This document shows, piece by piece, positions 25,586 to 33,176 of a stretch of 64,000 nt of DNA. Numbering within the stretch: the stretch's first letter is position 1; each line of letters opens with the position of its first letter. Under the pieces are notes generated by a model. The model did not search any database. It was not told the DNA's origin and saw only the letters and a program-made list of their open reading frames with translations. Location: contig NZ_CP108474.1 in NCBI RefSeq assembly GCF_036226445.1, positions 1,488,001 through 1,552,000 of the forward strand. The letters run 5' to 3'. The position numbers and the translations under genes are program-made. This DNA is from Streptomyces sp. NBC_01255. Lineage in GTDB: Bacteria > Actinomycetota > Actinomycetes > Streptomycetales > Streptomycetaceae.

Positions 25586-26644
25586 TCAGGTCTGGACGAG
25601 CGGCTCGTACGCCTCGGCGGAGAGCCCGAAGGTCCAGGCCACGCCCTCCCGCGCGGTCCGCGTCGAGGGCGGCACCCGCAGCCAGTACGTGCGGTGGCTG
25701 CCGTCCGGTTCGGGGGTGGAGTTGACCACCTCGACCATCACCACGTCCTCGTCGTCGGCCAGTTCGACGCGCCACAGAACGCCCGTCTCGTCGCGGTGCT
25801 GGTGCCGGGCACCCGACTCCGCGAGGTAGCGGTCGTAGCCGTAGTACTCCAGCATCACGCGCCGCAGTTCGGCGTTCTCCTCCGCGCGGATCAGCTCGGG
25901 GGTGAGGCCGGCGAGACCGGCCAGGAAGTCGGCGTCCACCGACATGCCCCGCCAGGCGTGCAGGGCGAAGCCGTCGGGGTAGGCGAGCGCCGGGCCGTCG
26001 CCCCGGTCGAGGCGCCCGGCCTCGTCCCGGTGGAGCTCCACCGGGCGCTCGCAGACCACGGCGACGTTCTCGTAGGGCCACCACCAGCCCGCGTGCCGGG
26101 CGACTGCGGCGAGCCCCGCGAGCCGCTCGCCCCGGCCGTCGAAGGCGGCCAGCCAGGCGGCGTCGTGCTGGCCGAGCACCGCGTCGAACAGCACGAGCCG
26201 CACGGCGGTCGCCTCCCGCGCGGTCCCGTCGGTGACCCGTTCCGCGGCAGCCTCCGTCACCCCGGCCCGGATCCGGTCGGCGAGCTCCCGCGTGAGGTCC
26301 CAGAGCCCCGCGCCGGTCGCCTGCCAGTGCGCCGCCCAGCCCGCGGGTCCGAGCGCGTCGTGGAGGCGTCGCCGCTCCTCGGCCCAGGGCCGGGTGCGCA
26401 CCTCGTCCCGTACCGAACGGCCCGCGCCGTCAAGCCCTCTGACGAGTGCGACGGCCGCGAGCGGCGAGTCCGCCCAGAGCACGCGCGCGGGCTCGGCGAG
26501 CCCCGCCGTGCGGTAGGCGAGCCGGACGCCGGCCTCGGCGGCGGCGCGATCGGCCGGTCCGGTGGCCGCGGCGACGGCCCGCCACGTGTCCTGTGCGGTG
26601 GTGCGGTTCATTCCGGTGTCCCCCAAGTCCTCGTCCTTGACCAT
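25586..26644 (-). CDS. DUF6745-like protein beside the STM4011-4015 operon
   Basis: 352 residues. An Ala/Arg-rich helical N-terminal half is followed by a compact C-terminal domain with ERPVELHRDEAGRLDRGDGP, YPDGFALHAWRGM and LEYYGYDRYL; the DGPA-YPDG-AWRG pattern is the one I associate with DUF6745. No enzyme motif is known. ATG 26644 has a GAGGGG site; ATG 26611 is a possible alternative. It lies 27 bp after the small MYRQGDV gene, forming a two-gene operon divergent from the STM cluster, and is probably functionally linked to it. Confidence 0.75.
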   Translation of the reverse strand: MVKDEDLGDTGMNRTTAQDTWRAVAAATGPADRAAAEAGVRLAYRTAGLAEPARVLWADSPLAAVALVRGLDGAGRSVRDEVRTRPWAEERRRLHDALGPAGWAAHWQATGAGLWDLTRELADRIRAGVTEAAAERVTDGTAREATAVRLVLFDAVLGQHDAAWLAAFDGRGERLAGLAAVARHAGWWWPYENVAVVCERPVELHRDEAGRLDRGDGPALAYPDGFALHAWRGMSVDADFLAGLAGLTPELIRAEENAELRRVMLEYYGYDRYLAESGARHQHRDETGVLWRVELADDEDVVMVEVVNSTPEPDGSHRTYWLRVPPSTRTAREGVAWTFGLSAEAYEPLVQT

Positions 26645-26671
26645 GTCGAGCCCCTCACGTCCGCCGGGCCG

Positions 26672-26998
26672 TCAGTCCGCGACGATCCGGTAGGCGCCGG
26701 GCACGTACTCCCGCTGCCGCACGACCCGGTACCAGCCCTTGGGCAGGGCTATCGGGGCATGCTCCTCGTGCACCACCCGGCCGCCCTCGGGCAGTTCGAG
26801 CAGCAGCGGGCCGAGGGGGCCCGGCTCCCGCACGAGCCGGCCGGGTCCGGGGATGGCGTGGGCGTGCCCGGTCACCTCCCCGAGGGCAAGGACGAGACGG
26901 CCTCTGGCGTCCCTCGGCTCCCCCGCCGCGGCCTTCGCGCGGGCCGGTACGGCCGTCTCCTCGACGGGTGCGATCAGCACGTCTCCCTGCCGGTACAT
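26672..26998 (-). CDS. Small MYRQGDV-type protein of unknown function
   Basis: 108 residues. It opens MYRQGDVLIAPV, continues with VLALGEVTGHAHAIPGPG and closes with EHAPIALPKGWYRVVRQREY, a widespread small beta-rich family in actinobacteria, cyanobacteria and phages that I know only as hypothetical. The GEVTGHAHAI segment with two histidines and the HEEHAPI segment could make a metal or ligand site. ATG 26998 has a strong GGAGGGGAGA site. It is first gene of the divergent pair facing STM4015. Confidence 0.75.
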   Translation of the reverse strand: MYRQGDVLIAPVEETAVPARAKAAAGEPRDARGRLVLALGEVTGHAHAIPGPGRLVREPGPLGPLLLELPEGGRVVHEEHAPIALPKGWYRVVRQREYVPGAYRIVAD

Positions 26999-27198
26999 GG
27001 CTCTCCCCTCCCCGTTCGGCGCGCTTCGCCCGAACACGAGAACGACGCTAGAGGCCGGGTCTGACAATCGGTCCGACCATCGCCCACCGGACAGTCCCTT
27101 GCCCGCCGGCGCGGCCCCGGCGAAGGGCGTTGTCGGTGCCGCTTGGTACAACTCTTGGCATCAGCCGATCAACGTCGTCCGTTGTCTGGAGCACCGTC

Positions 27199-28170
27199 AT
27201 GACCATCGGGAAATACCAGCAGGATTTCCACGGCCTTCCCGTGTTCGACTTCCCGAGTGCCGGCGCGGACGGGACCGCGTCCACCCCGCTGCCGGACGCC
27301 GCCGCCGTCGCCTGGCGGATCTCCGCCCCGACGTACAGCGAGCCCGAGGACGAGCTCTGGGAGCCGCAGTTCGAGCGGTTCCTCAAGACGGTCGACCCCA
27401 CCCAGGTCCGCGCGCTGGTCGTCGGCGGCTGGGACGAGGCGTACGAGGAATCGTCCGCGCCCATCGTCGCGGCGCTGATCGCCGCCCGCGACCGGCTCAC
27501 GGACCTGCGGGCGGTGTTCCTCGGCGACATGACGGGCGAGGACTGTGAGATCTCGTGGATCGTCCAGTCCGACGTGACGCCGCTGCTCGCCGCCTACCCG
27601 GCCCTGCGGGAGTTCGGGGTGCGCGGGGGCTCGGAGCTGGAGTTCCCGCCGATCCGGCACGAGGGCCTGGAGACCCTGGTGGTCGAGACGGGCGGTCTGC
27701 CCGCCGAGGTCGTGCGCGGGATCGCCGGCAGCGAGCTGCCCGCGCTGGAGAACCTCGAACTCTGGCTCGGCACCGACAACTACGGCGGCGACAGCACCAC
27801 CGAGGACCTGGCACCGCTGCTCGCCGGGACGGCCTTCCCCGCCCTGCGCAGCCTGGGACTGTGCAACAGCGTCATCCAGGACGAGGTCGCCGCGGCCGTG
27901 GCCGGCGCCCCGGTCGTCGCCCGGATCGAGCGGCTCGACCTCTCCAAGGGCGTCCTGACGGACGAGGGCGCGGCCGCCCTGCTCGACGGGCAGCCGCTCA
28001 CCCACCTCACCCGCCTCGACCTCTCCCACCACTTCCTGTCGGAGGCGATGAGCGACCGGGTCCGCGCCGCGCTCGCCCCGCACGGCGTCACGGTCGTCCT
28101 CGACGACGCCCAGGAGCCGGAGGACTACGGTGACGGCTCGGTCTACCGGTACGTCGCGGTAGCCGAATGA
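27199..28170 (+). CDS. STM4015-family leucine-rich-repeat protein
   Basis: 323 residues. The N-terminus FHGLPVFDFP and early WRISAPTYSEPEDELWE are family markers. From about residue 110 a series of irregular leucine-rich repeats is visible (LREFGVRGGSELEFP, LETLVVETGGLP, LENLELWLGTDNYGG, IERLDLSKGVLTDEG, LTRLDLSHHFLS). Such solenoids bind proteins, so it may hold a substrate or assemble the other products. ATG 27199 has a modest GGAG site; its stop overlaps the next start (ATGA). It is first gene of the five-gene operon. Confidence 0.88.
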   Translation: MTIGKYQQDFHGLPVFDFPSAGADGTASTPLPDAAAVAWRISAPTYSEPEDELWEPQFERFLKTVDPTQVRALVVGGWDEAYEESSAPIVAALIAARDRLTDLRAVFLGDMTGEDCEISWIVQSDVTPLLAAYPALREFGVRGGSELEFPPIRHEGLETLVVETGGLPAEVVRGIAGSELPALENLELWLGTDNYGGDSTTEDLAPLLAGTAFPALRSLGLCNSVIQDEVAAAVAGAPVVARIERLDLSKGVLTDEGAAALLDGQPLTHLTRLDLSHHFLSEAMSDRVRAALAPHGVTVVLDDAQEPEDYGDGSVYRYVAVAE

Positions 28171-29339
28171 CCCCCGCCCCGCGCCCCGTCGTCGTCGGTG
28201 ATCCGGCGGGCCGCCGTGTCGCGTTCCTCCAGGACGCGCTGCGGACCGCCGGGCTGCCCGGGGCGCGGGTGGTGTCCTGGCCGGACGTGCTGGGCGGCCG
28301 GGCGCGGTTCGCCGCCGGCGAGACCGTACGGATCGACTCGCCCGGTGAGGATCCGGAGGCCGACCGGCTGCTGCGCGGCGTCGACGACCCGGCCCGGGTC
28401 GAGGGTTCGGGCCGCTGGTACGCCCGGTTCACCGCCGCCGTCTCGGAGCTCGCGGAGACCGTCGGAGACGCGGGAGCCGCGCTCGTCGACGACCCCGGCG
28501 AGCTCGCGGTCCTGTTCGACAAACGGCTGAGCCACGGCCGGCTGCGAGCGGCCGGTGTGCCGGTGCCCGACTCGCCGACCTCCGGGCCCGCCGCCCCGGC
28601 CGTGGGCGGCTGGGCGGACCTCCGTTCGCTGCTCGGCGAGGCCGGCCTGCGGCGGGTGTTCGTGAAGCTCGCGCACGGCTCCTCCGCGTCGGGAGTGTTC
28701 GCGGTGGAGACGAACGGCACGGGCAGGATCCAGGCGACCACCTCGGTGGAGCGCGCACCGGACGGACGTCTCTTCAACTCCCTGCGGGTACGGCGCTACA
28801 CGAGCGAGCGGGAGATCGCCTCGATCGTGGACGCCCTCGCCCCCGACGGGCTGCACGTCGAGCGCTGGCTGCCGAAGGCCACCCAGGACGGCCGCGCCGC
28901 CGACCTGCGGGTGGTGGTGATCGACGGCCGGGCCACCCATGCCGTCGTCCGCACCAGCCGCTCCCCGATGACCAATCTGCATCTGGGCGGCGCCCGGGGC
29001 GACCTGGCCGCCGCCCGGGCCGCGATCATCGCGGCCGGCGGGCGGTGGGAGGACGCGCTCGGCGTGTGCGAGCGGGCCGCCGCCGCCTTCCCCGGCACCC
29101 GGTGCGTGGGCGTCGACCTGCTGCCCGCGACCGGCTGGCGCCGCTTCGCGGTGGGCGAGGTCAATGCCTTCGGCGACCTGCTGCCGAGGCTCACGGGTCT
29201 GCCGGGCAGCGGCGCCGAGGGCCTCGACACGTACGCGGCGCAGGTCGCCGCCCACTTCCCCGGCCCACTCTCCTCCGACGCGACCCGCACCCGCCCGTCC
29301 GACGCAGCCCCCCGCACCACAGGAACGAGCACCACGTGA
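28167..29339 (+). CDS. STM4014-family, ATP-grasp-like protein
   Basis: 390 residues. After an N-terminal alpha/beta region (VVVGDPAGRRVAFLQDAL, SWPDVLGG) come elements that look like an ATP-grasp core: a lid/lysine segment RVFVKLAHGSSASGVFAV, the hinge-like LHVERWLPKATQ, DLRVVVIDG, and the metal-site-like WRRFAVGEVNAFGDLL. Such enzymes join a carboxylate to an amine through an acyl phosphate. The assignment to STM4014 is firm by context and length; the ATP-grasp reading is by eye. It overlaps both neighbours by four bases. Confidence 0.85.
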   Translation: MTPAPRPVVVGDPAGRRVAFLQDALRTAGLPGARVVSWPDVLGGRARFAAGETVRIDSPGEDPEADRLLRGVDDPARVEGSGRWYARFTAAVSELAETVGDAGAALVDDPGELAVLFDKRLSHGRLRAAGVPVPDSPTSGPAAPAVGGWADLRSLLGEAGLRRVFVKLAHGSSASGVFAVETNGTGRIQATTSVERAPDGRLFNSLRVRRYTSEREIASIVDALAPDGLHVERWLPKATQDGRAADLRVVVIDGRATHAVVRTSRSPMTNLHLGGARGDLAAARAAIIAAGGRWEDALGVCERAAAAFPGTRCVGVDLLPATGWRRFAVGEVNAFGDLLPRLTGLPGSGAEGLDTYAAQVAAHFPGPLSSDATRTRPSDAAPRTTGTSTT

Positions 29340-30172
29340 ACCAGCCCGACATGAACGCGATCGTCGGCAGCCACGACCTGCTCCTGGTCACCCTCGACAC
29401 GCTGCGGTACGACGTGGCGGCCGAGCTGGCGGCCGAGGGGCGCATCCCGCATCTGGCCCGGCATCTACCCGGCGGCGCCTGGGAGCGGCGGCACGCGCCC
29501 GGCAGCTTCACGTACGCCTCCCACCAGGCGATCTTCGCGGGTTTCCTGCCGACCCCGGCCGCTCCCGGGCCGCACCCCCGGCTCTTCGCGGCCCGTTTCG
29601 CGGGCAGCGAGACGACGGCCGACGGCACTTTCGTCCACGACACCCCGGACCTCGTCTCGGCGCTCGCCGGCGAGGGCTACCGGACGGTCTGCGTCGGCGG
29701 GGTGGGCTTCTTCAACAAGCAGCCGCCGCTCGGCTCCGTACTCCCCGGCCTGTTCCAGGAGAGCCACTGGGAGCCGTCCTTCGGCGTCGCGTCCCCGACC
29801 TCCTTCGCGTCCCAGGTGGACCGCGCCGAGGAGGTCGTCGCCGCGCTCCCCCGCGAGCGCCGGCTCTTCCTCTTCGTCAACGTGTCCGCGCTCCACCAGC
29901 CCAACTGGTTCCACAGCCCGGGGGCGACGCCCGAGGCCGGGGACTCCCGGGCCACACACGCGGCGGCCCTCGAATACGTCGACCGGCACATCGGACGCCT
30001 CTTCGCCGCGATGAGCAGCCGCCGGCCCTGCTTCGCGATCGTCTGCTCGGACCACGGCACCGCGTACGGGGAGGACGGCCACACCGGACACCGGCTCGGC
30101 CACGAGGTCGTGTGGACCGTGCCGTACGCGCAGTTCGTCCTGGACGGCCCCGCGCAGGAGGCGACGGCATGA
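29336..30172 (+). CDS. STM4013/SEN3800-family alkaline-phosphatase-superfamily hydrolase
   Basis: 278 residues from GTG 29336, which overlaps the previous stop (GTGA); ATG 29351 is the alternative. The sulfatase/phosphodiesterase fold is shown by LLLVTLDTLRYDV (first metal aspartate), GSFTYASHQAIFAGF (nucleophile region, where Thr or Ser replaces the sulfatase Cys), and CSDHGTAYGEDGHTGHRLGH (metal Asp-His pair and distal His). It should cleave or transfer a phosphate or sulfate ester. No signal peptide, so it acts in the cytoplasm with the two radical SAM proteins. Confidence 0.88.
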   Translation: MNQPDMNAIVGSHDLLLVTLDTLRYDVAAELAAEGRIPHLARHLPGGAWERRHAPGSFTYASHQAIFAGFLPTPAAPGPHPRLFAARFAGSETTADGTFVHDTPDLVSALAGEGYRTVCVGGVGFFNKQPPLGSVLPGLFQESHWEPSFGVASPTSFASQVDRAEEVVAALPRERRLFLFVNVSALHQPNWFHSPGATPEAGDSRATHAAALEYVDRHIGRLFAAMSSRRPCFAIVCSDHGTAYGEDGHTGHRLGHEVVWTVPYAQFVLDGPAQEATA

Positions 30173-31515
30173 GCGACACCACCACCCCGCGCCCGTACCG
30201 CAGCTACGTCTACGCCTATCCGCACAAGACGGCGTACCGCGCGCTCCCCGACCGGCCGTCCCTCGACGCCCTCTGGGCGGCGGAGCCGAAGGACGCGCTC
30301 TCCCTCTACGCGCACATACCGTTCTGCGAGGTCCGCTGCGGGTTCTGCAATCTCTTCACCCGCATCGGCGCCCCCGACGAGCTGACCACCCGCTACCTCG
30401 ACGCCCTCGACCGCCAGGCCACGGCCGTCCGCGAGGCGCTCGGCGACCCCCGAGGGGACAGCGCTCCCGTGCGGTTCGCCACGGCCGCGTTCGGCGGTGG
30501 CACGCCCACCTTCCTCACCGCCGCCGAGCTGGAGCGGCTCTGCGACATCGCCGAGAAGCGGATGGGGGTCGATCTGCGGGCCGTACCGCTGTCCGTCGAG
30601 ACGTCCCCCGCGACCGCGACCGCCGACCGGCTCACGGTCCTCGCCGAGCGGGGCGCGACCCGCCTCAGCATCGGCGTGCAGAGCTTCGTGGAGGCGGAGG
30701 CGCGGGCGGCGGTCCGGCCGCAGCGGCGCGCGGACGTCGAGGCCGCGCTCGGCAGGATCCGGGACACCGGTGTGCCCGTCCTCAACATCGACCTGATCTA
30801 CGGGATCGACGGCCAGACCGAGGAGTCCTGGCGTTCCTCGCTCGACGCGGCGCTCGCCTGGTGCCCCGAGGAGCTGTACCTCTACCCGCTGTACGTCCGG
30901 CCGCTCACCGGTCTCGGCCGGATCTCCCCCGGGGCCGACCGCGAGTGGGACGAGCGGCGGCTGCGCCTCTACCGGTACGGCCGGGACCACCTCCGCGCGC
31001 ACGGCTACGAGCAGGTGTCGATGCGGATGTTCCGCCGGACGGACGCCGCGCCCCTCGGCCCGGACGACTACGCGTGCCAGACGGACGGGATGATCGGCCT
31101 GGGCTGCGGCGCCCGCTCGTACACCTCGGCGCTGCACTACTCCTTCGACTACGCCGTCGACATGCGCGAGATCCGCTCGATCATCGACGCGTACACGGAG
31201 ACAGAGGACTTCTCCCGCGTCGAGGTCGGCCGGTGGGTCGATGCCGAGGAGGCCCGCCGCCGCCATCTGCTCCAGTCGCTGCTCCAGGCCGAGGGCATGC
31301 CGGTCGCCGGCTACGAGGAGCGGTTCGGCTCCTCCCCGTTCGCGGACTTCCCCGCGGAGCTGGCCCGTTTCGCGTCCCTCGGCTGGCTCGACGAGGACGC
31401 CCCGGCGGGGCTGCTCCGGCTGTCACCGGAGGGGCTCGCGTACTCGGACGGGCTCGGCCCGGAGCTGTTCTCGCCCGACGTGCGGGCCGCCATGGCCGCG
31501 TACGAGCCGAAGTAG
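30169..31515 (+). CDS. STM4012-family radical SAM protein (HemW-like)
   Basis: 448 residues. The cluster motif is HIPFCEVRCGFCNLFT (CxxxCxxC) near residue 50. FGGGTPTFLTAAELERL, VETSPATATADRL, RLSIGVQSF and NIDLIYGIDGQTEESW follow the HemW/HemN barrel, and a HemN_C-like domain fills residues 340-448. HemW proteins bind heme, but paralogues in gene clusters do unrelated radical chemistry. The ATGA overlap with STM4013 and the seven-base gap to STM4011 place it firmly in the operon. Confidence 0.92.
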   Translation: MSDTTTPRPYRSYVYAYPHKTAYRALPDRPSLDALWAAEPKDALSLYAHIPFCEVRCGFCNLFTRIGAPDELTTRYLDALDRQATAVREALGDPRGDSAPVRFATAAFGGGTPTFLTAAELERLCDIAEKRMGVDLRAVPLSVETSPATATADRLTVLAERGATRLSIGVQSFVEAEARAAVRPQRRADVEAALGRIRDTGVPVLNIDLIYGIDGQTEESWRSSLDAALAWCPEELYLYPLYVRPLTGLGRISPGADREWDERRLRLYRYGRDHLRAHGYEQVSMRMFRRTDAAPLGPDDYACQTDGMIGLGCGARSYTSALHYSFDYAVDMREIRSIIDAYTETEDFSRVEVGRWVDAEEARRRHLLQSLLQAEGMPVAGYEERFGSSPFADFPAELARFASLGWLDEDAPAGLLRLSPEGLAYSDGLGPELFSPDVRAAMAAYEPK

Positions 31516-31522
31516 GGAAGCC

Positions 31523-32395
31523 GTGGATCTGACCCTGCTCTACCGCGGCCCGCTCGCCTCCTGCGACTTCGACTGCCCCTACTGCCCCTTCGCCAAACGC
31601 CGGGACAGCCGCGAGCAGCTGCGCGCGGACCGGGCCGCGCTCGACCGGTTCACCGGGTGGGCCGCCGGACAGACCGGCGACCGGCTGCGGATCCTCTTCA
31701 CCCCGTGGGGCGAGGGCCTGGTGCGCTCCTGGTACCGGCGGGCCCTGGTCGACCTGTCACGGCTGCCGCACGTGGAGCGGGTGGCGATCCAGACCAACCT
31801 CAGCTGCCGGACCGACTGGCTGGCGGAGGCGGACCCCGAGACCGTCGCCCTCTGGTGCACGTACCACCCGGGCCAGACGCCGTACGAACGCTTCCTCGGC
31901 AAGTGCCGCGAGCTGGCCGCCCGGGGCATCCGGTTCAGCGTCGGCGTGGTCGGCCTGCCCGAGCACCGTGACGACGCCCGCCGGCTGCGCGCGGCCCTGC
32001 CGCCGCACGTCTACCTCTGGGTGAACGCAGCCGAGGGCCACACGTACACGGACGCGGAGGCCGAGGAGTGGACGGGGATCGACCCGCTCTTCCCCTACAG
32101 CAGACGGCCGCACCGCTCGGCGGGGCTGCCGTGCCGTACCGGCGAGTCGGTGATCTCGGTGGACGGCGAGGGGACCGTGCGGCGCTGCCACTTCGTCAAG
32201 GCCGAGCTGGGGAACCTGTACGACGGTTCGTACCGCGCCGCGCTGCGCCCCCGGGCCTGCCCCCTCGCCGTCTGCGACTGCCACATCGGCTACGTCCATC
32301 TGGAGACGCTGCCGCTGTACGACGTCTTCGCCGGCGGGGTCCTGGAGCGGATCCCGGCCGGCGTCGGCGGCCCCGGCGGTCCTACAGGGGCATGA
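31523..32395 (+). CDS. STM4011-family radical SAM protein
   Basis: 290 residues from GTG 31523 with a GGGAAG site. The SAM cluster motif is SCDFDCPYCPFAK, only about 13 residues from the start, then ILFTPWGEGLVRSWYR, VAIQTNLSC and a C-terminal Cys-rich part (GTVRRCHFVKAELGNLYDG, CPLAVCDCHIGY) that resembles a truncated SPASM/twitch auxiliary-cluster region. SPASM-like enzymes usually modify peptides, so a peptide or protein substrate is plausible. The last 14 bp overlap the convergent SGNH hydrolase gene. Confidence 0.9.
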   Translation: MDLTLLYRGPLASCDFDCPYCPFAKRRDSREQLRADRAALDRFTGWAAGQTGDRLRILFTPWGEGLVRSWYRRALVDLSRLPHVERVAIQTNLSCRTDWLAEADPETVALWCTYHPGQTPYERFLGKCRELAARGIRFSVGVVGLPEHRDDARRLRAALPPHVYLWVNAAEGHTYTDAEAEEWTGIDPLFPYSRRPHRSAGLPCRTGESVISVDGEGTVRRCHFVKAELGNLYDGSYRAALRPRACPLAVCDCHIGYVHLETLPLYDVFAGGVLERIPAGVGGPGGPTGA

Positions 32396-33176
32396 GGTCG
32401 GGGCGCTTCGCCTCGACGTGGTCGCCCGAGCTCTCGCCGCGCAGCCTGCGCCCGATCCAGGGCACGAGGTACTCCTTGGCCCAGTTGAGGTCGTCGCGGC
32501 GGACCTCCAGCGTGCCGCGCGGGGGGCGCGGCGGCCACGGCTGGTCCGGGTCGGCGGGCACCGGCAGGCCGAGGACCTGGGCGGCACGCAGGGCGACGCG
32601 GGTGTGGCCGTCGGGCGAGAGGTGCAGCCGGTCGTCGTCCCAGGCCCGCAGGTCCTGCACGGACTTGAGCGACCACAGGTCGAGGACCGGGCAGTCGTAG
32701 CGGTCCGCGATGGACCGGACGTGGGCCGTGTAGGTGGCGATCTTCCCGCGCAGGTGCCGGAGCACGGGGATGTCACGGGTGTCGAAGCCGGTGGTCACCA
32801 TGACGGTGCCGACGGCGGAGGTCAGGTCGGCGACGGCGCGCTCGAAGCGCTCGGCCACGTCGTCGGGGTCGGTGCCGGGCCGGATGATGTCGTTGCCGCC
32901 GGCACAGAAGGTCACCAGGTCGGGGGCGAGTTCCTTCGCCCGGGGGACCTGTTCCGCCACGATCTGGTCGAGCAGGCGCCCGCGTACGGCCAGGTTGGCG
33001 TAGCGGAAGTCGTCGTGCTCCGGCAGCTCGTCGGCGAGCAGCACCGCGAAGCGGTCCGCCCAGCCGACGTACGTCCCGTCGGGCCCGGGGTCTCCGACGC
33101 CCTCGGTGAAGCTGTCACCGATCGCCGCGTACGACCCGAATGCGTTCTTGTCTCTTGATCTCGAATCGTCTGCCAC
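32382..33176 (-). CDS. SGNH/GDSL-type hydrolase
   Basis: 264 residues. Block I is YAAIGDSFTEGVG (nucleophile Ser), block II gives ANLAVRG, block III CAGGND and block V DDRLHLSPDGH with the catalytic Asp-His pair. No signal peptide, so a cytoplasmic esterase or acyl hydrolase. The last 50 residues (RRDDLNWAKEYLVPWIGRRL) are seen in a common actinobacterial subfamily. It converges with, and overlaps, the STM4011 gene by 14 bp. Confidence 0.92.
   Translation of the reverse strand: MADDSRSRDKNAFGSYAAIGDSFTEGVGDPGPDGTYVGWADRFAVLLADELPEHDDFRYANLAVRGRLLDQIVAEQVPRAKELAPDLVTFCAGGNDIIRPGTDPDDVAERFERAVADLTSAVGTVMVTTGFDTRDIPVLRHLRGKIATYTAHVRSIADRYDCPVLDLWSLKSVQDLRAWDDDRLHLSPDGHTRVALRAAQVLGLPVPADPDQPWPPRPPRGTLEVRRDDLNWAKEYLVPWIGRRLRGESSGDHVEAKRPDLMPL

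Follow-up and report, generated by a model that had tools for sequence, protein, structure and literature searches.

What is the function of a set of genes whose order is kept across five classes and four phyla, and which is nonetheless annotated by name only? The question is raised by a cassette at positions 25586–32395 of a 64,000-nucleotide stretch of Streptomyces sp. NBC_01255 (contig NZ_CP108474.1, positions 1,488,001–1,552,000; hereafter the window), which falls into two divergently oriented units: the minus strand carries DUF6745 and MYRQGDV, and the plus strand STM4015, STM4014, STM4013, STM4012 and STM4011, in that order. All five STM genes exceed curated NCBIfam cut-offs and DUF6745 exceeds its Pfam cut-off. 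The NCBIfam families STM4011–STM4015 are these same families and their names carry no function; the literature that we searched, mostly non-subscription, yielded no function or defined pathway for STM4011–STM4015 or DUF6745, the STM names appearing as table entries only. From STM4015 to STM4012 the genes are joined by three four-base overlaps (ATGA, GTGA and ATGA), and seven bases precede the STM4011 start. A first-pass annotation of the window had named the same five families and divergent pair and had described the same overlaps and gap, and both descriptions hold. It had also proposed that STM4015, a leucine-rich repeat (LRR) protein, is a scaffold. What is new here is that STM4015, judged from its sequence, looks like a substrate or carrier rather than a mere scaffold; in our best reading, drawn by analogy, the cassette would work like the LysW carriers or the pearlins while being a member of neither group.

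The C-terminal tail of STM4015

STM4015 (27199–28170, plus strand; NF038076, 403 bits against a cut-off of 275) has an AlphaFold2 model with a mean predicted local distance difference test score (pLDDT) of 94.5 and a solved homologue, 2RA8 from Bacteroides fragilis. Behind a variable acidic linker (residues ~303–316, 28105–28146), in which both sequence and length vary, the protein ends in RYVAVAE (residues 317–323, 28147–28167), whose last residue, Glu323, is the predicted attachment site. Among 145 non-redundant cassette copies, this seven-residue tail, with the consensus RYVAVxE at the very C-terminus, has a mean entropy of 0.84 bits versus 2.57 bits for the linker (residues 305–316), and its strictest position is the last, which is glutamate in 145 of 145. 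The C-terminus lies anywhere from 38 to 58 residues beyond the last LRR motif, and the position of the tail is constant relative to the C-terminus.

The same ending recurs in a wider set of 195 distinct full-length STM4015 proteins, from cassettes and lone copies, that cover at least 85% of the query, have a start codon and are not cut by a contig end; the survey of endings took cassette copies of at least 80 bits and lone copies of at least 60 bits. Terminal glutamate is present in 193 of the 195, and the two exceptions are both lone copies in genomes without STM4011, one with glutamate replaced by aspartate (L027) and one truncated (L129). The pattern [YF][VTIAP]xxxE fits 189 proteins; of the six that depart from it, three are lone copies from STM4011-free genomes and three are Salmonella or Methylobacterium proteins that still end in glutamate. 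A divergent lone copy (L133, discussed below) and the broken gene of L029 fell outside this set, and the other ending of one cassette copy (L092) belongs to a 590-residue reading frame that is not that of the gene. Outside Streptomyces, glutamate closes the proteins of Salmonella (IYMNAMYTE), Paenibacillus (WRYPSLTE), Deinococcus (WRFVALGE), Methylobacterium (YRSIAVSE) and Bacteroides (WYYPMITE), as well as a lone copy in Calothrix (RYCSVAE). Because of this tail, together with the tandem copies described below, the sequences make STM4015 more likely a substrate or carrier than a scaffold; of the earlier proposal, the LRR identification stands and the scaffold role becomes the less likely one. 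A practical rule also follows from the terminal glutamate, namely that tags should be kept off the STM4015 C-terminus.

The native C-terminus of 2RA8 is likewise glutamate, and the chain carries eight residues beyond it, probably a tag, so that this structure is uninformative on modification. A close relative of 2RA8, encoded on a Bacteroides finegoldii plasmid (L119, 8761–12775), has an N-terminal WGR domain; this locus lacks a stretch that covers most of STM4013 and STM4012, and the order reads 4015-4014-(part of 4013)-4011. At the DNA level, the tail tyrosine is encoded by TAT in 55 of 174 cases versus 85 of 959 elsewhere in the STM4015 gene. Nearly all TAT tails precede STM4014, and in 35 the script-assigned STM4014 start lies inside the tail with a 20-base overlap; the codon bias thus arises because the STM4014 start codon overlaps the tail DNA.

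STM4014 and known carrier systems

STM4014 (28167–29339, plus strand; 445 bits against a cut-off of 175) is, by its profile and structural matches, a RimK/LysX-type ATP-grasp enzyme, which narrows the ligase-like protein of the first-pass annotation. Its top profile matches are LysX and RimK, its top structural matches are ArgX-LysW (3vpb, the best), RimK, LysX and RimK-RpsF, it has the RimK/LysX-type ATP-grasp fold, and the motifs D[LVI]R, TNL and [ED]xNxxGD are intact in 108 of 108 STM4014 sequences. DxR, TNL and ExN are catalytic residues of ATP-grasp enzymes. We predict that STM4014 ligates a group onto the C-terminal glutamate of STM4015; median isoelectric points are 9.17 for STM4014, 4.46 for STM4015 and 5.1–7.2 for the remaining five families. 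In the excerpts of the cited papers that we consulted, here and below, LysX couples an amine to the C-terminal glutamate of LysW (PMC10433800), and the C-terminus of RpsF receives glutamate from RimK (PMC7343187). The suggestion in the first-pass annotation that the cassette modifies a peptide or protein gains support from this reading of the glutamate tail and its RimK/LysX-type ligase.

LysW carriers and pearlins have been compared with each other (PMC9303977), and the cassette resembles each in part. With LysW/ArgW and LysX/ArgX it shares a glutamate-ended putative carrier and a RimK/LysX-type ATP-grasp partner whose best structural match is the ArgX-LysW complex. In contrast to LysW/ArgW, STM4015 is an LRR protein of ~320 residues; neither CxxC, as in the zinc-binding cysteines of LysW, nor the EDWGE ending (motif from PMC10433800) occurs in any of the 195 STM4015 proteins, and the GSWGR motif with which LysX/ArgX read the carrier tail occurs in none of the 108 STM4014 sequences. 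The partners differ as well, being radical S-adenosylmethionine (radical-SAM) enzymes in the STM cassette and LysZ/Y/J/K in the LysW pathway (PMC10433800). From RimK acting on S6/RpsF, STM4014 is set apart by a score far under the RimK family cut-off and by its invariant [ED]xNxxGD. The pearlin systems (TglA/TglB and TmoA/TmoB) also assemble a group on the C-terminal end of a carrier polypeptide, and tmo includes a radical-SAM enzyme (PMC9303977). Unlike in these systems, the predicted carrier is a folded LRR protein, and a tRNA-dependent PEARL ligase, DUF692 and a protease are absent from the family matches of the seven genes, in a scan confined to the cassette. If the terminal glutamate is charged, LRR proteins would join the LysW and pearlin peptides as a third type of C-terminal carrier.

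STM4011, STM4012 and STM4013

STM4011 (31523–32395, plus strand; NF038073, 420 bits against a cut-off of 200) is a radical-SAM enzyme with a C-terminal auxiliary-cluster (twitch/SPASM-like) domain. In addition to the CxxxCxxC cluster, a second cysteine set, CxxxxCxC, is found in 107 of 107 distinct sequences, and C14, C18, C21, C204, C222, C246, C251 and C253 are invariant in nine of nine. Its sole PDB profile match at E 0.01 is SkfB, with profile residues 189–274 aligned to the SkfB C-terminal region, and it is in this C-terminal region that STM4011 resembles SkfB and the SPASM/twitch enzymes of ribosomally synthesised and post-translationally modified peptides (RiPPs). No short precursor gene of the kind used in those pathways turned up within the five-gene unit in four loci outside Actinomycetota (L031–L034), small open reading frames outside the unit not having been surveyed; gaps inside the unit of these loci are at most 68 bases and so leave little space for a hidden precursor gene. 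STM4012 (30169–31515, plus strand; NF006067, 640 bits against a cut-off of 380) is a HemN-like radical-SAM enzyme whose best PDB profile matches are HemN (1olt) and the methyltransferase NocN, and PFCxxxCGFCN is present in 105 of 105 distinct sequences.

The esterase-like hydrolase of the first-pass annotation is STM4013 (29336–30172, plus strand; NF038075, 425 bits against a cut-off of 250; PF00884), which is better described as an alkaline-phosphatase-superfamily metalloenzyme. It retains the metal-binding and threonine residues of that superfamily, and D16, T54, D234-H235, H247 and H251 (numbered from Met 29351) are invariant in nine of nine sequences. Threonine is the nucleophile in the alkaline-phosphatase superfamily. 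STM4013 likely acts on a phosphoester or sulfoester. A HAD hydrolase is fused to STM4011 in Bacteroides, forms an overlapping 3' gene in Salmonella and lies nearby in Deinococcus taeanensis, an association that hints at phosphate chemistry. Compared with the window across 20 loci, STM4013 is 74–86% identical and STM4015 42–60% (one piece of a broken STM4015 reaches 64%), and on these alignments the enzymes are better conserved than STM4015.

A second STM4013-like subfamily (L035, 5860–9306; L037, L145, L152, L153 and L155) is ~44–53% identical to its best query, and we found no STM4014 or STM4015 beside it. In L035, a Streptomyces plasmid, its gene stands in an operon with radical-SAM, thymidylate-kinase-like and NUDIX genes. 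STM4013-like matches in Agrobacterium (27% identity) were set aside, the surroundings being unrelated in the one record examined.

Co-occurrence, tandem copies and lone copies

We fetched 145 loci, many of them through a cassette gene; most sequences are from Streptomycetaceae, the other phyla being represented by single plasmid loci, and the cross-phylum sample was built from plasmid records and genome searches. All five STM genes are present in 106 of the 145 loci, among which one (L029) has a broken STM4015 and one pair has identical STM4015 genes. Among 150 Streptomycetaceae genomes drawn independently, 73 have an STM4011 above its cut-off, and every one of the 73 also has STM4015. The genes thus travel together, in keeping with the view of the first-pass annotation that they form a self-contained unit.

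Counting full-length copies only and excluding pieces, 54 of the 106 complete loci have at least two STM4015 genes: on the operon strand, 51 loci have one, 52 have two, one has five, one has six and the broken L029 has none. These arrays sit beside one enzyme set. Every copy that directly precedes another STM4015 keeps the tail (64 of 64), and 57 of these do not overlap the next gene. In 55 two-copy loci, copies from the same locus are on average 52% identical, versus 59–60% for positional counterparts.

Lone STM4015 copies occur elsewhere in genomes that carry the cassette, and among those fetched from enzyme-bearing genomes or records 11 of 12 keep the tail, L133 being the exception. STM4015 is found without an STM4011 above the cut-off in seven of the 150 Streptomycetaceae genomes, one of which (G012) has STM4011 in four pieces. 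The lone copies of the other six end in RHVAVEE (G006), RCTAVGD (G127), RYTAVDE (G063), RYAAVTE (G023) and RFTAVAE (G132), or have no tail (G141). Decay of the tail in lone copies from enzyme-free genomes is suggestive only, given the small numbers and the draft state of some genomes.

A proposed carrier scheme and its rivals

In the scheme that we favour, STM4014 would use ATP to activate Glu323 of STM4015 and join to it an amine, which could be an amino acid or an amine metabolite. Modification of the tail-tethered group by STM4011 and STM4012 would follow, and STM4013, with the HAD hydrolase where present, would move or remove a phospho- or sulfo-group. Multiple STM4015 copies would serve as parallel carriers, and the DUF6745/MYRQGDV pair would have an accessory role in handling or sensing. 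What the sequences show is which genes are present and in what order, the C-terminal tail, the repeated STM4015 genes of relatives, the fold of the ligase and catalytic motifs that are intact; from these we infer the acceptor, the donor and the product. Glu323 is probably a site of covalent modification. We rate at slightly under an even chance the full scheme, in which STM4015 is the carrier, STM4014 loads its C-terminal glutamate and STM4011, STM4012 and STM4013 act on the tethered group. More tentative still is the proposal that this constitutes a new carrier-protein chemistry extending from Streptomyces to Salmonella and Bacteroides, in which the glutamate tail of an LRR protein, often in tandem copies, is charged with an amine by a RimK-type ligase and the product is built by two radical-SAM enzymes and a phosphatase-superfamily enzyme. 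If the terminal glutamate is charged, an intact-mass measurement on one protein would open the pathway, and the carrier reading would make the gene set directly testable.

Several points weigh against this scheme. The group attached to STM4015 is itself a prediction from sequence and fold, the five-gene unit revealed no enzyme for release, and it is not obvious why a carrier should need LRRs or be encoded in several copies. The tail is not alone in its conservation: DUF6745 and MYRQGDV also have a conserved C-terminus, as in part does STM4012, and the tail DNA of many last copies also contains the STM4014 start codon, an additional constraint. The modelled tail is of lower confidence (mean pLDDT of 79 for the last residues), so that its placement is uncertain. 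STM4014 scores 25.4 bits against the NCBIfam RimK model (TIGR00768), far below the cut-off of 143.4, it also resembles DcsG and PsnB, and its isoelectric point is near neutral (6.7–7.6) in Paenibacillus, Bacteroides and one Deinococcus. Among lone copies in STM4011-free genomes, only three of six are off-pattern and three keep the tail, and a divergent lone copy below the cut-off (L133, in G018) has lost the tail in an enzyme-bearing genome.

The absence of a release enzyme from the five-gene unit would fit a protein from which nothing is released, namely a permanently modified effector or receptor whose LRRs bind a partner and whose modified tail does the work. Partner binding is the usual task of LRR folds, and the divergence of tandem copies within a locus, greater than that between positional counterparts, is what such a role might produce. 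We nevertheless consider it unlikely: the Pfam scan of the window STM4015 found no effector domain, and the C-terminal half of the LRR region is well conserved (1.14 bits), with many invariant positions, the N-terminal half being more variable (1.74 bits), which fits a shared docking face better than a target repertoire. For the same reason, we do not favour the LRRs as a target-recognition repertoire. Docking could also be the task of the tail, if it is a peptide that gathers the enzymes on a scaffold, with a separate metabolite, lipid or RNA as the actual substrate. HemN-like STM4012 could act on small molecules, and the STM4013 relative of L035, beside kinase-like and NUDIX genes, points to small phosphorylated substrates; on the other hand, the strictest position of the tail is its terminal glutamate (145 of 145) and not its middle, and the partner enzyme belongs to a family that modifies C-terminal glutamate, leaving this explanation rather doubtful.

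If STM4015 were instead a RiPP whose leader is the LRR region, tail residues such as Arg-Tyr-Val would be modified by the radical-SAM and ATP-grasp enzymes, and a protease would free a short peptide. The likenesses of STM4011 to SkfB and of STM4012 to NocN, and the graspetide ligase PsnB among the STM4014 fold matches, agree with this idea, which we judge improbable, since the tail is nearly uniform within arrays and similar across phyla, unlike diversifying core peptides, and no peptidase family appears among the Pfam and NCBIfam matches of the seven proteins, the neighbouring M23 peptidase being a host gene. Still more improbable is an anti-phage defence or conflict system, a role that the first-pass annotation had raised; in its favour are a distribution that is patchy, mobile and partly plasmid-borne and the resemblance of MYRQGDV to a phage protein family. 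When the seven proteins were compared with the PADLOC models, a single weak match appeared, that of the STM4012 radical-SAM core to PDC-M51A (26.6 bits), nuclease or pore-forming families are absent from their Pfam and NCBIfam matches, and a phage collection contains STM4015 in five records, two of them covering at least 80%; the defence role is thus not supported.

The five records with STM4015 pieces (H28–H32) comprise four Salmonella or Escherichia phage records, two of which are phage JD01, and one bacterial contig, and in H30–H32 the piece lies at the start of the record. These pieces are probably host DNA and not phage genes.

Distribution and insertion site

The order 4015-4014-4013-4012-4011 is kept in fetched loci from Actinomycetota, Deinococcota, Bacillota, Alphaproteobacteria and Gammaproteobacteria, and plasmid records with this order come from Salmonella, Paenibacillus, three Deinococcus, Methylobacterium and Nonomuraea; in Calothrix, STM4015 stands alone within the fetched stretch. 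STM4015 occurs in 80 of the 150 Streptomycetaceae genomes and in six of 296 genomes drawn across the phylum, five of the six in the window's own genus and including the window's genome. In a scan of genome contigs, the best 80 of 568 confirmed places are all actinobacterial and nearly all Streptomyces, and the closest loci among these 80 are from Streptomyces, with STM4013 identities reaching 93%.

The cassette is a discrete insert, because relatives keep the same flanking genes without it. In one genome (G450), the flanks GDH, TetR and SIMPL on one side and SGNH, M23 and PTP on the other stand in the same order, the cassette is absent, and the SIMPL and SGNH matches lie ~130 bases apart; another (G440) has the entire cassette between these SIMPL and SGNH genes. 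The site is empty too in G009, which has a five-gene version without DUF6745/MYRQGDV ~0.7 Mb away. Mobility, which the first-pass annotation had proposed, is borne out by this empty site, by the second chromosomal position and by the plasmid copies in several phyla. The SGNH hydrolase gene at 32382–33176 was considered as a cassette member and rejected, as it is found in 39 of 41 genomes of the genus and remains at the empty site; the M23 peptidase gene two genes downstream is likewise a flanking host gene that is also present there. Two loci of one genus (g2) have ~2 kb of extra DNA between STM4013 and STM4012 (L011, 14400–16300; L012, 13930–15910), and one reading frame of the extra DNA in L011 resembles, by eye, a sigma factor.

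The DUF6745 and MYRQGDV pair

The minus-strand unit consists of a 352-residue DUF6745 protein (25586–26644; PF20530, 383 bits against a cut-off of 27), an accessory gene of the cassette, and its partner, a 108-residue MYRQGDV-family protein (26672–26998) with GHAH and HEEH motifs. DUF6745 exceeds its cut-off in 29 of 34 STM4011-positive genomes versus 5 of 47 others (Fisher test). The divergent pair lies inside the fetched DNA of 93 of the 106 complete loci, MYRQGDV adjoining DUF6745 in most loci; Deinococcus and Methylobacterium have the pair, and the stretches fetched from Salmonella, Paenibacillus and Bacteroides lack it. On this pattern of matches, DUF6745 travels with the cassette yet is dispensable. 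The MYRQGDV protein, which matches the phage family phrog_27831, of unassigned function, may be a small metal-binding protein, and that it is cupin-like is our guess. In three further loci (L146, L147 and L148), DUF6745, accompanied by MYRQGDV in L148, lies 6–8 kb from a diverged STM4013 (64–66% identity) with no STM4015, and the pair may also function in another, related system.

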